The notes beneath the pieces are model-generated. The model saw only the letters and a program-made list of their open reading frames with translations. It had not been told where the DNA came from and did not search any database. This document shows, piece after piece, positions 1,477 through 15,029 of a stretch of 34,051 bases of DNA. Origin of the DNA: a virus; IMG/VR virus record IMGVR_UViG_3300013306_000039, positions 1 through 34,051 of that record; one strand, 5' to 3'. The position numbers and the translations under genes were made by a program. Positions within the stretch are counted from its first letter, which is position 1. Every line of letters starts with the position of its first letter.

Positions 1477-3924
1477 TCATGGCGGTTGCGTGAACGCGAT
1501 GCGCTCGCCGACGATGAACGGTGCTCCAACGCCGTCGTTCGCGCCGTTGTGGATGATGCGGAACGAGGTGACCCCAACGCCCGGACTGAATGTCGTCGTG
1601 CGGACGATCGTGCCGTCATCCAACAACTCGTCCTGCGCCGTGCCTCCAGTGTCGTAGGTCGCGCCGTAGTACAGCGCGACGCTGAGGTCGTGGTGCGCCT
1701 CAACGTAGTTCTTCAGCTTGCTGATCACCTTGACGTGCTGAGTGCTCGCAGTCGTGATCGGTTTAGAGATGTGATGCACGGTCGGAGCTGACGCGCGCAT
1801 CAGCTCGACCTCGCTGTTCGTCAACGAGAACCCGGGCATCAGGTCGGTCGTACCCGTAATGACGACTCGGAACTGCAGTAGCGGATCGCCGCCGTCGAGG
1901 ACCGGCGTGTCTTGCTGGAACGCTTGCCACACACCGTCCACCATCACTTCGTAGTGCAGATCGCACGCCGCTGGGATGATGTGCTCGGCAAGCACGTCTA
2001 CGCCGCCAATGCCGCCGGGGAGTTGGAGCGGCGCAAGGTTGATCTCGTAGCGGAGCTGACCGCCCGGGCTCGACTGATCGCCCCAGCGTCCCCAGGTGCA
2101 GAAATGCAACCGGAACCGCATGACGCGCGGACCGCCCGACCAAGCGCGGAACGTCGATCCGTCGTTGTACCAAAAATGGCCTTGGCACACTTGGTAGGCC
2201 GCATCGTTGTCACAAAACGAGAACTCGTGATCGAACGTCGAGTGGACGTGGATGCCGAAGTGCTGGCCCTGCGTCAGGAACACCGGCGGGAAGTTGATGC
2301 GGACTGGCCAGACATAGGTCGGGATCACGTTGTAAGTCGGTAGGCTCATCCAGAACAGGCCGCCCAGGATGACTGTAATCACGTCCTCGACGATGATGTC
2401 GCCTGCGTAAACCGGCTGGCCGTAGCAGGTCTGGACGCTCGCAGCGTCGAGCACAGCACGCCGTAGCGACTGGTTGCCTTGGTCTGGTGTGGCGTCCTCC
2501 ATGCAGCCCGAGATGATGAGCGACAGTGGCTGGTAGAGCTGCCGATGCGAGAATAGCGTGATGCCGGAAAGCCAGCCGTCCTGCGCGTTGTAGAACGTTT
2601 GGCAGCCGTGGTTACCGCTGTGGCTGAAGTCGGTGTAAACCTTGGCCCAGTGATGGGGCTCGACCCAGTCGCGCCAGTAGTGATTCCAACGATCGTAGCC
2701 ATGGCGAGGCCAATACAGGCTCTGCTCGTTGTGAATCATCGTTTCCTGCCACTCGACCTGCTCCCACGTTTCGGTCGTGAAGCTAAGGATGTGGTAAGTC
2801 GGATCGCGCTGAGCTTCGAACCACCAGACGCTCGCCGCAGGCCACGGCACAAAACTCGGGCCGAACCGGAACCGCCAGCGTGACGGTGTCAGCTGACGCA
2901 CCGGAAAGTTCCAGAACCCCCACGTCAAAATTCTGACCGGTGTCCAAGGCTTGTCCGGGAACGAACAATCATAGCGTACACGCGCGCCCGAGGGCTTGGG
3001 CAGCACAAACCCGTCGAACGCTTGGATCACGCGCTCGGCTGGATTGAGGAGCTGCAGCGGGCCGCTCCAGCCGACGCCACCGGGCGGAAAACGCAATCCC
3101 TCCTCGATCCGGGCCGAATACGCCCCGCTCACGTTGGCCGCCAGATCGCTCTCGTCCTCATCCAAGAAACGGTCGGTGCCGTACCACTGGAACGCCTCCG
3201 GCCTGTGCGCGTAGGTCCACAGTTCGTTGACCAGATCGACCAACTGCTGGAACTGGGTCAGCAACGTGTAGAGCAGCATCTGGCTCGCGAGGTTGGCCAA
3301 GTCCGTGCGCAGGGTGTCGATCATGCCCTGCGCAACGCCGCGCCAAGCCTCCATCTGCGCGAGCCGCGCTGCCACCAGCTCGAGGTTGTCGAGCTGGGTG
3401 TCCGTCACCTGCGTGAACGAGATGATCCCGGTCGGATCGCACAGCACATAGCCAATCAGCAGGTAGGTCGCCTCCACCCCAGGGAACTGCGGGTCGGCGC
3501 TCTCGTTGCCGGCGACCGTTGAGATGTTGCAGTAGCGCGTGCGTTGCATTGCCACCGATTGCGGCTCTGCCATGCCGGTGTCGGCGTCGATCAGGAAGTT
3601 TCTGGGCTGGATGTCCTCATCGATCGTCTGGCCCCACGCCACCACCGCGAAATACTTTCGCGCCGTGACGGGAAGCTGGTTGTAGAGGTCGATGCTGACC
3701 TCATCCTCACGCGCGTACACCGCGCCGCCGCTGTAGAGCCGCCCCTGCGATGTCTTGATCGTCGTCTGCGCCGCCTTGGTCAGTGTGAAGCCGCTGTACG
3801 CCTTGGCGGGATTGATTGCGTCAAGGACGACGTGATCGAGGCTCTGCTGGACCCAGCCCTGCTGGTTAAGGAAGTCTTCGGCTTGAAGCTCCTGGTTGTC
3901 ACGGAAAACCACCATCTTTTCCAT
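1477..3924 (-). CDS. Large baseplate or tail-tip structural protein
   Basis: An 815-residue protein starting MEKMVVFRDNQELQAEDFLN, preceded by an AAGGGGAG ribosome binding site. Residues about 185-240 look helical and may form a coiled coil; the rest is rich in Trp, Tyr, Phe and Gly, as in beta-rich tail proteins. The N-terminal pattern of an oxidation-prone start followed by NQELQxxDF resembles N-termini of phage tail or baseplate proteins that attach fibres, but I cannot name the family securely. It follows gpI and precedes the fibre, so an adaptor or baseplate-periphery role is likely. Upstream, a short open frame repeats its first codons (see 3928-3984). Confidence 0.75.
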   Translation of the reverse strand: MEKMVVFRDNQELQAEDFLNQQGWVQQSLDHVVLDAINPAKAYSGFTLTKAAQTTIKTSQGRLYSGGAVYAREDEVSIDLYNQLPVTARKYFAVVAWGQTIDEDIQPRNFLIDADTGMAEPQSVAMQRTRYCNISTVAGNESADPQFPGVEATYLLIGYVLCDPTGIISFTQVTDTQLDNLELVAARLAQMEAWRGVAQGMIDTLRTDLANLASQMLLYTLLTQFQQLVDLVNELWTYAHRPEAFQWYGTDRFLDEDESDLAANVSGAYSARIEEGLRFPPGGVGWSGPLQLLNPAERVIQAFDGFVLPKPSGARVRYDCSFPDKPWTPVRILTWGFWNFPVRQLTPSRWRFRFGPSFVPWPAASVWWFEAQRDPTYHILSFTTETWEQVEWQETMIHNEQSLYWPRHGYDRWNHYWRDWVEPHHWAKVYTDFSHSGNHGCQTFYNAQDGWLSGITLFSHRQLYQPLSLIISGCMEDATPDQGNQSLRRAVLDAASVQTCYGQPVYAGDIIVEDVITVILGGLFWMSLPTYNVIPTYVWPVRINFPPVFLTQGQHFGIHVHSTFDHEFSFCDNDAAYQVCQGHFWYNDGSTFRAWSGGPRVMRFRLHFCTWGRWGDQSSPGGQLRYEINLAPLQLPGGIGGVDVLAEHIIPAACDLHYEVMVDGVWQAFQQDTPVLDGGDPLLQFRVVITGTTDLMPGFSLTNSEVELMRASAPTVHHISKPITTASTQHVKVISKLKNYVEAHHDLSVALYYGATYDTGGTAQDELLDDGTIVRTTTFSPGVGVTSFRIIHNGANDGVGAPFIVGERIAFTQPP

Positions 3925-12062: not shown

Positions 12063-12512
12063 TCAGCCCCACTGTCCGCGTGTCGTGCGCGGGCGAACCT
12101 TCGCCGCCTCCCTCATGTTCGCCCTCGTGCTCTCGCGAAAGTCACTGTCTTGCCACTTCGCCTTGATCGCTGCGCTGTGCTTCGCGCGCGCCGCCGGATC
12201 GAGCCAGCGCGACTTGAGCGCATGCGCGGCGTGAAACGGTTTATTCCAAAGGTCCTTGTGCTTCGCGATCATAGCCGCTTCCAGCTTGAACGCTCCGCGC
12301 TCGTCCAGGTCGTCGCGGAAGAGGATGTATTCGATGCCGCGTCCGTCTCGCAGCGCCGCGCTCAGTTGTTCGTTGCAGTGGTTGCCGCTCTTGGCTTCGA
12401 CCACGTGCGCGTAGATGCGGCCATTGCAGCCCTTGCCGACGTACCGGACGATGCCGTCCACCTTGATCCCGTAGACGTAGAACCGGCGCAGCAATACGAT
12501 CTTCTTAGCCAT
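12063..12512 (-). CDS. GIY-YIG homing-type endonuclease
   Basis: A 149-residue protein starting MAKKIVLLRRFYVYGIKVDG. The GIY-YIG elements are present: FYVYGIK (11-17), RYVGKG (23-28), Arg32 and His36 in GRIYAH, Glu78 in the EAAMI segment that binds the metal, and Asn90 in LWN. Residues about 105-138 repeat an ARAKHSAAIKAKW-like pattern found in NUMOD-type DNA-binding tails. I chose the ATG at 12512 because GGAGG lies 5 nt upstream inside a conserved hairpin leader (12513-12587). The gene lies between two connector genes. A homing role is inferred; the nuclease centre looks complete. Confidence 0.9.
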   Translation of the reverse strand: MAKKIVLLRRFYVYGIKVDGIVRYVGKGCNGRIYAHVVEAKSGNHCNEQLSAALRDGRGIEYILFRDDLDERGAFKLEAAMIAKHKDLWNKPFHAAHALKSRWLDPAARAKHSAAIKAKWQDSDFRESTRANMREAAKVRPRTTRGQWG

Positions 12513-12587
12513 GTCGAGCCTCCAATGCTCGTTGTGGTCAGGGGCCGGTTCGCGCTTCAACGCGAGTCGGCTCCGCTACTATACCGT
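12513..12587 (-). promoter_or_regulatory. 75-nt structured leader of the GIY-YIG gene
   Basis: Read on the minus strand it starts ACGGTATAGTAGCGG and ends GGAGGCTCGAC before the ATG. It can form a large hairpin (inner stem TCGCG/CGCGA, then four GC pairs and more) followed by a short one, CGAGC, 7-nt loop, GCTCG, which holds the GGAGG ribosome binding site. The same layout at the same length precedes the HNH gene at 13479-13973. TATAGT could serve as a -10 box. It overlaps the tandem stop TAGTAG of the DUF4054 gene. Confidence 0.7.
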
Positions 12588-12998
12588 GAGGATCGGCGGT
12601 ATATTTCGACTCCGCAACCTTAAAAACTTCTGGCCGTAAATGGTGTCGTCGAACTCCGCCGCGCCGGGGCCGGTGATCTGGCCCTCCGTGGTGGACACCT
12701 TGCGCTCGCCGAACATGACGCGCCGCTCGCCGAACGCCACCATCCGCACGAACAGGTCGGAGCTGATCTCGCTGCTGCCGCCCGAACCGCCGGCCACTGC
12801 GCCGCCGATGCCGAGCGACATCTTGATGTTGTGCGCGGTCAAGTACCACCGCGCCCACACAAAGTCGGGCGGATGCCACAAGCCCGCCTCCAGCCACATA
12901 TCGGTCTCGTCAAGCGCGTTCGAGAGCTGCGGATCGGTCATCGACGCGAACTCAGGGATCGCAATCCTGAACGCAGCGATGTCCGCGCCCGAGGCCAT
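12579..12998 (-). CDS. DUF4054-type head-tail connector protein
   Basis: A 139-residue protein: MASGADIAAFRIAIPEFASM, then DPQLSNALDETDMWLEAGLW and WYLTAHNIKMSLGIGGA. The FRIAIPEF start, the helical middle and the laAHxLxM segment before a Gly/Ser loop match DUF4054 proteins, which are head-tail adaptors of the gp6/gp15 type that bind under the portal. It begins in a TAATG overlap with the upstream gene. It ends in tandem TAGTAG. Confidence 0.75.
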   Translation of the reverse strand: MASGADIAAFRIAIPEFASMTDPQLSNALDETDMWLEAGLWHPPDFVWARWYLTAHNIKMSLGIGGAVAGGSGGSSEISSDLFVRMVAFGERRVMFGERKVSTTEGQITGPGAAEFDDTIYGQKFLRLRSRNIPPILTV

Positions 12999-13486
12999 TA
13001 GCCCTTGCCCTTGCCCTTCGGCACCGCCATCGCTTGCGCGCGCGCCGCCTCACGCTCGGCAAATAGCGCCCGCTGGCGCTCGTCGTAGCGCTCGGCCGCC
13101 CCCTCGATCATGGAGCCCACGCCCTCGATCTTGATCGGGTGCAAGGGCTTCGGCCGGCCGGGCTTGGCCGGGTCGATCACCGGGTAATACCGGTCGGGCC
13201 GCCGCATCTCCTGGAACCGGGCGATCTCGTCGTTGATCATCTCGATCTCGACGCTCTGCCCACCCCGCAGCTCGTGGCCGACCATGAAGCGATCAATCAC
13301 GACATGTATCTGGCCGTTCTCCGAGGTGTTCGTCACCTTGACGCGCGAGGACGGCTCCTGCAGCCGCTCCCAGCTCGGCTCCGGACGCATCGGTGCGAAG
13401 TACGGATGGTCGGGCGGCGGCGGACGCACTAGGTTCTGCTTCTGCGGTACCGGGTGCATGTTCGGGTTGAACGGCACGTCAGCCAT
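12998..13486 (-). CDS. Unknown virion-associated protein
   Basis: A 162-residue protein starting MADVPFNPNMHPVPQKQNLV. It is Pro-rich at the N-terminus. Residues 48-85 (VKVTNTSENGQIHVVIDRFM, then VGHELRGGQSVEIEMINDEI) look like a small beta-domain. The C-terminus is helical and basic (KGKGKG). It lies between the capsid and connector genes if the inserted HNH gene is left out. It may be a capsid-associated or head-completion protein. No family recognised. Confidence 0.65.
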   Translation of the reverse strand: MADVPFNPNMHPVPQKQNLVRPPPPDHPYFAPMRPEPSWERLQEPSSRVKVTNTSENGQIHVVIDRFMVGHELRGGQSVEIEMINDEIARFQEMRRPDRYYPVIDPAKPGRPKPLHPIKIEGVGSMIEGAAERYDERQRALFAEREAARAQAMAVPKGKGKG

Positions 13487-13973
13487 TAGGCTCTCTCCAT
13501 ATTTCGCGGCGGAGAATCCTCCCCACCGTTCGTTGATCGACGTTGAACTTGGCAGCGAGCAATCGCTGCGATCCTCGGGACTTCCGTATTTGCTCGACCA
13601 GTTTCCACGTCAGCTTTGCGCGACCATTGCGCTCGCCGCGCGACGCTGTGCCGTGCTCCACCGAATCCGCGTAGTTCTCGCTCCTGGTTGCCCAGCGAAT
13701 ATGCTTCGGCGTGACGCAGCCGAGATGGCCGTTGCCACAGGAGTGCGCGGAGTCATGTTTCGGTGTTGGCGGCTCGCCGTGGACGCGCTTGCACACGATG
13801 CGAGCGACTAGGACGGTGCCGAAGTTCTTCGCTCCGATCCTGGCGTAGCCTTTGGCGGTTCTGCCATAGGGCCACAGCAGGCATTCATCGCCTTGGTACG
13901 CGCAGGCTTTTTCTAGGAAGGCCGGCAGGTCGCCGTGCGCGCGGTACGTCTTGCGGTATACTCGCTTAGCCAT
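13479..13973 (-). CDS. HNH homing-type endonuclease with C-terminal helix-turn-helix, possibly impaired
   Basis: A 164-residue protein starting MAKRVYRKTYRAHGDL. The HNH_3-like core runs from CLLWPYGRTAKGYARIG (31-47) to AHSCGNGHLGCVTPKHIRW (76-94). Residues about 118-160 form a helix-turn-helix of the kind often fused to these enzymes. It is a paralogue of the plus-strand HNH at 15967-16521. Where that protein has VHR, this one has VAR (Ala57), so the first His of the motif is missing. The family's usual Asn before Pro is Thr here. The ATG follows GGAGG in the conserved leader. Activity is uncertain. Confidence 0.85.
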   Translation of the reverse strand: MAKRVYRKTYRAHGDLPAFLEKACAYQGDECLLWPYGRTAKGYARIGAKNFGTVLVARIVCKRVHGEPPTPKHDSAHSCGNGHLGCVTPKHIRWATRSENYADSVEHGTASRGERNGRAKLTWKLVEQIRKSRGSQRLLAAKFNVDQRTVGRILRREIWREPNG

Positions 13974-14048
13974 TCGAGCCTCCTACGCTCGGGTGGTGAG
14001 GGGCCGGACCCACGTTGCAAGCGTGGCCCGGTCCCGCTAATATACCGT
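13974..14048 (-). promoter_or_regulatory. 75-nt structured leader of the minus-strand HNH gene
   Basis: Read on the minus strand it starts ACGGTATATTAGCGG and ends GGAGGCTCGA before the ATG. Inner stem CCACG/CGTGG replaces the TCGCG/CGCGA of the other leader while keeping the pairing. The second hairpin CGAGC, GTAGGAG loop, GCTCG is kept and holds the ribosome binding site. TATATT may be a -10 box with a weak TGGAAA 17 nt upstream. The rest of the gap, to 14084, shows nothing. Confidence 0.7.
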
Positions 14049-14084
14049 CATTGCCTCAGCCTTTCCATTTTGATTCGAGTTGCC

Positions 14085-15029
14085 TCAAATCCCGTCCAAG
14101 TAGCGCATGGCCCCTGGCCGCCGAATCTCTAGCCCGGCAAGCCTAAAAATTCCTGGCACGTCGAAAATCATGGGCCCCGTCCTCATCACTTCGAGGAAGC
14201 GATGCGGCATGGGCACATGCATTTTTATTACTTCGGGGTCTTTCTTGTACGCGATCATACGCGGCTGACCAGCTGCACCTGCCGTTTCCAACCCGCGCAC
14301 GGCGCGGATCGTCAGAGGCGCTTTGGCCTCTTGCGTGTACATGTTGTACTTTTCGACCCATTGCATGAGGGTCATGGTGGTGTTCGGCATTGCAGTGGTC
14401 GTGAGCACGTTGAGCTGCGTCATCGGCAGCAGCAGCGTGTCCGCGATCTCGACGCCGGACGACGATTGCCACACATTGGCGAGCACTCCGTTGACGTCCT
14501 GCATGATCATCGGGATTTGGTTGTTCGCGACCCGATAGGCCCACGTCTGCGCCGTGTTGATCACGGTCGGTGCCGGGTGGTTGATCAGCCCGAACCAGTT
14601 CTTTGCCGCCGCGCCGTACAACGCGGTGAAGTGAATGAACTCCTCCGCCGCACGCTTCGCAGCGGCCGCGCGCTCCGGTCCCAAGTTCACGTTCGGGACC
14701 ATCATCGCCTGTTGCAGCTCCTCGGTGGTGTAACGATAGCCCACCGCGGCCATCTCGATCGCCATCTCGAATTTGTCGCGGGTGATGTCGGCGAGCGGCA
14801 CGTCGTGCGCCAGGTGCGAGAACCAGTCCGCCTTGCCGACTTGGTCGACCGAGAAGAACGTGATGCTCTTCGCCCATTCCGGTGCGCTCGTGTCGATCGG
14901 CACCAGCTCCCGATAATTGAGTTCGGGATACTTCATTCTGTAGACGCCCGGCTCGATGTAGGTCGTCTGCGCGATCAGAAAGCCGAGGGCCTGCTGTTGC
15001 GCGTCTGCGGTGTAAAAATTGCTCAGCAT
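14085..15029 (-). CDS. Major capsid protein (DUF2184 type)
   Basis: A 314-residue protein. ATG 15029 is preceded by GAGGAG about 8 nt away; an earlier in-frame ATG has no support. Signature stretches are VYRMKYPELNYRELVPIDTS, then ADWFSHLAHDVPLADITRDK, and YRYTTEELQQAMM, matching the DUF2184 capsid family of HK97-fold proteins. The C-terminal MPHRFLEVMRTGPMIFDVPG is also typical. It forms the shell after processing by the protease upstream. The cement gene immediately precedes it. HNH genes sit on both sides of the cement/capsid pair. Confidence 0.9.
   Translation of the reverse strand: MLSNFYTADAQQQALGFLIAQTTYIEPGVYRMKYPELNYRELVPIDTSAPEWAKSITFFSVDQVGKADWFSHLAHDVPLADITRDKFEMAIEMAAVGYRYTTEELQQAMMVPNVNLGPERAAAAKRAAEEFIHFTALYGAAAKNWFGLINHPAPTVINTAQTWAYRVANNQIPMIMQDVNGVLANVWQSSSGVEIADTLLLPMTQLNVLTTTAMPNTTMTLMQWVEKYNMYTQEAKAPLTIRAVRGLETAGAAGQPRMIAYKKDPEVIKMHVPMPHRFLEVMRTGPMIFDVPGIFRLAGLEIRRPGAMRYLDGI

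Follow-up and report, generated by a model that had tools for sequence, protein, structure and literature searches.

Homing endonucleases are parasites of phage genomes and need to be kept quiet, and RNA-OUT of IS10 and the sar RNA of phage P22 are familiar examples of short antisense RNAs that cover the start of translation in a mobile-element or antirepressor gene and come from a promoter inside or beside that gene. FinP of F-like plasmids (Rfam RF00107) places two stem-loops over the ribosome binding site (RBS) of a single mRNA, that of traJ, and needs FinO. RepX of the IncQ-1 plasmids R1162/RSF1010 (RF00043, Plasmid_R1162) is an RNA of about 75 nt with two stem-loops, antisense to the RBS and start codon of repA; it is a negative regulator of copy number, and mutations in it raise plasmid copy number (PMC8136791). 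T4-type endonuclease genes (I-TevI, segB, mobE) use RBS hairpins that act within the mRNA and that the late promoter bypasses (PMC2988022). Here we describe an element resembling RepX in positions 1 to 34,051 of virus record IMGVR_UViG_3300013306_000039 from IMG/VR (the window, 34,051 nt in all). Two 75-nt stretches of its minus strand, 12587..12513 and 14048..13974, precede a GIY-YIG-type and an HNH endonuclease gene, and an earlier interpretation made from the letters and open reading frames (ORFs), the sequence-only reading, had described them as mRNA leaders. We confirmed both stretches at these positions and conclude, with a probability of roughly 0.8, that these "leaders" are RepX- and FinP-like cis-antisense RNA genes over the RBSs of homing-type endonuclease genes, probably repressing their translation.

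As predicted from sequence and fold, the window RNAs share with RepX their length, their two stem-loops and their position antisense to an RBS and start codon, and the parts of the RF00043 consensus, which ends in AUGGCU, agree with theirs in kind and order. They differ in their target, which is plasmid repA for RepX and a phage homing-type endonuclease here. With FinP they share two stem-loops over the RBS of one mRNA, but FinP targets traJ and needs FinO, whereas no FinO/ProQ link was found for the element. RNA-OUT and sar are alike in being short and antisense to a translation start; neither has an Rfam match in the window, and a sequence relation to them was not sought. The homology of the window copies to RF00043 RNAs is carried by shared covariance models, whose E-values are rough. 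R1, for which only phage leaders were used, recovers the start of repA in an RSF1010-type plasmid (E = 2.4e-10), and R2, built on the antisense strand with RSF1010 included and any window sequence excluded, finds both window copies. R1 also matches plasmid pCY-VIM (L263:1500-1577, E = 1.3e-11) before a hypothetical gene that heads type IV secretion genes, a layout like that of FinP and traJ. One bacterial copy (L237) scores 64 bits against RF00043, where the cut-off is 55, and other bacterial copies match below the cut-off; another (L193) has a sub-threshold FinP match of 30 bits on the antisense strand. In the literature searched, which comprised open-licence papers only, RepX is not described beyond IncQ plasmids.

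Besides the RSF1010 match, sequence analysis allows us to establish the element itself, its spread, its covariation, a strand bias and a fixed start nucleotide. Exact and then stem-agnostic DNA patterns (the latter a hairpin followed by CCTNACCAC, another variable stem enclosing NNNGGAGG, and ATGGC, with the letters ACCAC, GGAGG and ATGGC fixed) revealed dozens of unrelated phage contigs with this architecture, and R1 recovered further copies that do not match the pattern. Each of 40 phage records has one or two copies only. Across the whole window R2 has exactly two matches, both on the plus strand (Table 1); because R2 was built without the window, its recovery of exactly these two indicates that they are not chance. 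At E <= 0.01, R1 detects the element in 35 of 385 Alphaproteobacteria genomes; at E <= 1e-4, it does so in 38 of 399 sampled Pseudomonadota genomes. A DNA pattern, being too strict, had matched nothing in the 385 Alphaproteobacteria genomes, and BLAST of the leaders against named phages gave nothing or noise. Matches of the first leader pattern in Reyranella genomes (L065-L068) were discarded as chance, lying within an integrase gene, and L077, L090/L113/L123/L125/L138/L147, L096/L148, L108/L131, L105/L137, L128 and L155 were judged chance or plain coding sequence.

Pairing is kept although stem sequences vary greatly among copies. Over all 69 distinct pattern hits, unselected, hairpin 1 had a pairing score of 17.0 with its true arms against 13.1 +/- 0.3 with swapped arms, and stem 2 scored 10.1 against 7.7 +/- 0.2; a hand-picked set of 28 copies gave the same outcome. 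The antisense alignment holds 77 two-sided changes against 28 +/- 4 in shuffles, a number that none of 500 shuffles reached. The covariance search that the sequence-only reading had proposed thus returned many further copies with covariation, rather than the two window copies alone. Its claim that unrelated homing-type endonuclease genes have in common a structured RNA element on the RBS is borne out, with strong covariation and in many other phages, as are its observations that the inner stems of the two window leaders differ by compensatory change and that a CGAGC-N7-GCTCG hairpin holds the RBS of each, with GGAGG in the loop.

We give almost no credence to the idea that the two copies are a recently duplicated DNA segment or a recombination site with no RNA function. 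They do lie within one 1.5-kb region and have a ACGGTATA edge in common, but strong covariation refutes this account, and the asymmetry between strands also speaks against it, as does the recurrence of the element across unrelated phages, chromosomes and plasmids. In the GIY copy, moreover, this common edge is protein-coding: the 9 nt with which that copy begins (ACGGTATAG, 12579-12587) are the 3' end of the upstream DUF4054 coding sequence (..ILTV-stop), as empty-site relatives show, L049 reading ..VLTV-stop at the DUF4054 end. The same relative rules out the ACGGTATA edge as part of a mobile leader.

Strand assignment is ambiguous from sequence alone, and the evidence points to the strand opposite to that of the sequence-only reading, which had suggested an RNA element that keeps translation low or timed, with the T4 I-TevI hairpins as its model. 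In this rival account a structured 5' untranslated region (UTR) acts in the mRNA, no antisense RNA is produced, and hairpin 2 holds the RBS as in T4 I-TevI, segB and mobE. The mRNA strand does also fold, a TG-extended -10 stands before hairpin 1 in 24.5% of the phage set against 6 +/- 3% of shuffles, and such hairpins are known for T4-type endonuclease genes (PMC2988022). The opposite strand, however, has the more stable fold in 95 of 97 copies (-38.8 vs -29.6 kcal/mol), with 4.9 G-U pairs per molecule against 0.9 on the sense strand. Since the pattern fixed ACCAC, GGAGG and ATGGC, the strand argument rests on hairpin 1, the codon-2 base and the -10 motif. Taken by itself, hairpin 1, for which no stem sequence was prescribed, favors the antisense strand in 76 copies and the sense strand in 21 (p = 1e-8). 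All 74 of 74 copies have GCT as codon 2, with a last base that lies outside both the pattern and R1 and matches the putative antisense start nucleotide; by comparison, T ends 16% of GCN codons elsewhere in the same ORFs, and GCT occurs in 21 of 62 ATGGC genes classed as lacking the element. The family logo clearly shows an extended -10 motif on the antisense strand, a short way into the ORF and correctly spaced from this base. The antisense -10 and start site also explain conserved MADSxNTxT-like N-termini in bacteria better than protein conservation does. The 8 nt that follow stem-loop 2 on the antisense strand are rich in U (0.45 vs 0.24).

A 5' UTR gives no role to the invariant GCT codon or to the -10 motif within the ORF, and the known relative of the element is an antisense RNA. 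T4 transcripts that start from the late promoter, which lies within or below the hairpin, escape it; here the candidate sense -10 is upstream of both hairpins. The likeness to T4 lies in a translational brake on homing endonucleases among strongly transcribed genes; the difference is that the conserved RNA of the window is on the opposite strand. With the better, covarying structure, the conserved start nucleotide and the putative internal promoter all antisense, and with RepX as the closest relative, we consider the T4-like leader mechanism unlikely.

Under the antisense reading, each endonuclease gene would have on its opposite strand a gene for a cis-antisense RNA of about 76 nt over the translation start, with a promoter placed in the first codons of the endonuclease gene. 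The RNA would begin with the A that faces the third base of codon 2, continue across the stretch complementary to the start codon and to the Shine-Dalgarno sequence, and consist in order of stem-loop 1 (SL1) with a 7-nt CUCCNNN loop, a GUGGUNAGG linker, a stem-loop 2 (SL2) that resembles a terminator, and its end. The CUCCNNN loop would meet the mRNA loop NNNGGAG, and the duplex would then cover the RBS and start codon. We infer that both antisense RNAs are transcribed, that they base-pair with their mRNAs and that they thereby repress the target; the likely outcome would be low, copy-number-sensitive expression of the endonuclease, with synthesis held low even under strong read-through where the gene sits among late structural genes. 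The loop triplets of the two window RNAs differ (UAC in HNH, AAU in GIY), and the computed pairing of the RNAs with their own leaders is -181 and -173 kcal/mol, against about -100 with the other's leader. An antisense RNA might instead open the leader and so aid translation. This has been proposed for Asr9 of ISPpu9, which is antisense to the transposase leader of a mobile element and whose removal lowers translation (PMC8450116). The window RNAs, however, cover the Shine-Dalgarno sequence and start codon as RepX, a negative regulator, does, and we regard an activating role as very unlikely.

The fixed ATG opens 47 phage ORFs that are 50 aa or longer, and 30 of these match nuclease families (HNH, endonuclease VII, GIY-YIG) in Pfam or PHROGs; the remaining phage targets are two integrases, a Rha-type antirepressor and orphans. 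Bacterial targets are RuvC-like resolvases (phrog_159), a BRO/KilAC antirepressor and orphans, some of them very short. The element, which the sequence-only reading took to travel with homing genes, is not restricted to them: integrases, antirepressors, resolvases, plasmid repA and orphans carry it too. The CUCC loop, and the bacterial copies that face ORFs of 21-28 aa at several copies per genome, would also suit a mainly trans-acting small RNA with an anti-Shine-Dalgarno loop, its overlap with endonuclease starts being secondary. Against this stand the 30 nucleases among the 47 testable ORFs, with a well-placed Shine-Dalgarno sequence, and stems and loops that differ between copies in one phage, as those of cognate pairs would; we think a mainly trans-acting role improbable.

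Several results weigh against a RepX-like antisense RNA. The antisense fold uses the pattern-fixed ATGGC and ACCAC, and when these are excluded the bias of stem 2 is small (57 vs 38, p = 0.01); composition-matched shuffles also lean antisense, accounting for 2.5 kcal/mol of the difference of 9.2. In the window, the GIY copy has a weak antisense -10, and both copies lack a good U-tract. No match to RF00043 was found in the window at the gathering cut-off, or in 12400-14150 at E <= 1, and we therefore place the window copies beside RF00043 within a wider family. FinO/ProQ genes (PF04352) do not co-occur with the element: they are present in 7 of 30 genomes that have it and in 5 of 30 that lack it. 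Finally, some bacterial copies face only very short ORFs, and part of the family may be stand-alone RNAs.

Dozens of phage and bacterial genes have related copies over their start codons, which suggests that a portable brake on selfish and accessory genes is widespread. On balance we favor a broader view, in which RepX is one branch of a large family of such antisense brakes, and a compact segment (antisense promoter, RNA gene, and the RBS and first codons of the target) behaves as a single unit that unrelated accessory genes, phage homing endonucleases foremost among them, acquire or retain; this would be so in several percent or more of Pseudomonadota genomes. Phage homing genes are thereby linked to the classic copy-number control RNA of IncQ plasmids, and an Rfam family of one plasmid group becomes a broad family with strong covariation. 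We found no report of antisense RNA control of any homing endonuclease in the literature searched. The dozens of natural sense-antisense pairs offer material for the study of loop-set specificity, and annotating such elements as 5' leaders is a likely strand error to avoid.

In bacteria, the element recurs before RuvC-like resolvase genes (L243, L245, L254 and others), sometimes with several copies per genome; G432 has five. Genome G349 has three copies (L196, L223, L229) facing a conserved 28-aa peptide (MAILNYIRRHGISTASPHVCGGMGTAGG-like), a layout reminiscent of type I toxin-antitoxin systems. At L084:10843 and L093:10806 the element precedes a conserved 14-aa ORF (MAKTDxLTPxVKQx) and not a long gene.

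Table 1. Features of the two endonuclease loci in the window; RNA, promoter and loop entries are predictions.
Feature	Position	Strand	Support or remark
GIY-YIG-type endonuclease ORF (149 aa), sense target gene	12063..12512	-	LEM-3_GIY-YIG E=2.6e-5, under curated cut-off
HNH endonuclease ORF, C-terminal helix-turn-helix (164 aa), sense target gene	13479..13973	-	PHROGs phrog_59 E=3.4e-18
GIY mRNA leader (target side of antisense RNA)	12513..12578	-	GGAGG at 12523..12519
HNH mRNA leader (target side of antisense RNA)	13974..14048	-	GGAGG at 13983..13979
Predicted antisense RNA, ~76 nt, over GIY start codon and RBS	12507..12582	+	R2 12507-12577, E=1.3e-13; fold -38.0 kcal/mol; 3' end putative
GIY antisense RNA stem-loops	SL1 12508-12538, SL2 12541-12574	+	Fold
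SL1 loop of GIY antisense RNA, CUCCAAU (7 nt)	12520..12526	+	Complements mRNA loop AUUGGAG
Antisense -10-like TACGAT (weak) within GIY ORF	12495..12500	+	Predicted start A12507; putative promoter
Predicted antisense RNA, ~76 nt, over HNH start codon and RBS	13968..14043	+	R2 13968-14038, E=5.3e-11; fold -42.6 kcal/mol; 3' end putative
HNH antisense RNA stem-loops	SL1 13969-13997, SL2 14000-14035	+	Fold
SL1 loop of HNH antisense RNA, CUCCUAC (7 nt)	13980..13986	+	Complements mRNA loop GUAGGAG
Antisense -10 box TATACT within HNH ORF	13957..13962	+	Right distance from predicted start A13968; putative promoter
Possible sense -10 TATAGT, GIY mRNA	12578..12583	-	Overlaps DUF4054 stop codon; putative
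Possible sense -10 TATATT, HNH mRNA	14039..14044	-	TG-extended -10 enriched over shuffles in phage set; putative

The order of genes on the minus strand is major capsid gene, HNH gene, a gene of unknown function, DUF4054 gene, GIY gene and the next gene. Both endonuclease gene calls hold, with weak Pfam scores: the GIY ORF reaches 24.7 bits against GIY-YIG (cut-off 27) and the HNH ORF 16.6 bits against HNH_3 (cut-off 24.8). The PHROGs match of the HNH ORF is clear. Both leaders are present together and identical in seven IMG/VR contigs, which we therefore take to be the same phage. Two relatives (L049 and L050, capsid protein 70% identical) lack both endonuclease genes and thus provide empty sites; TCTTGACGGT is common to both empty sites (L049:2350-2372 and 3170-3185) and is possibly a common insertion target of the two genes. 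GIY relatives in L054 and L055 occupy the same junction without the element, which is therefore not tied to the enzyme lineage. In L053, too, an HNH gene lies at the junction downstream of the capsid gene; its hairpin (L053:4955-4985, ATCGTTCTCCC/GGGAGAACGAT) is a different one that contains the Shine-Dalgarno sequence in its stem, a possible independent solution.
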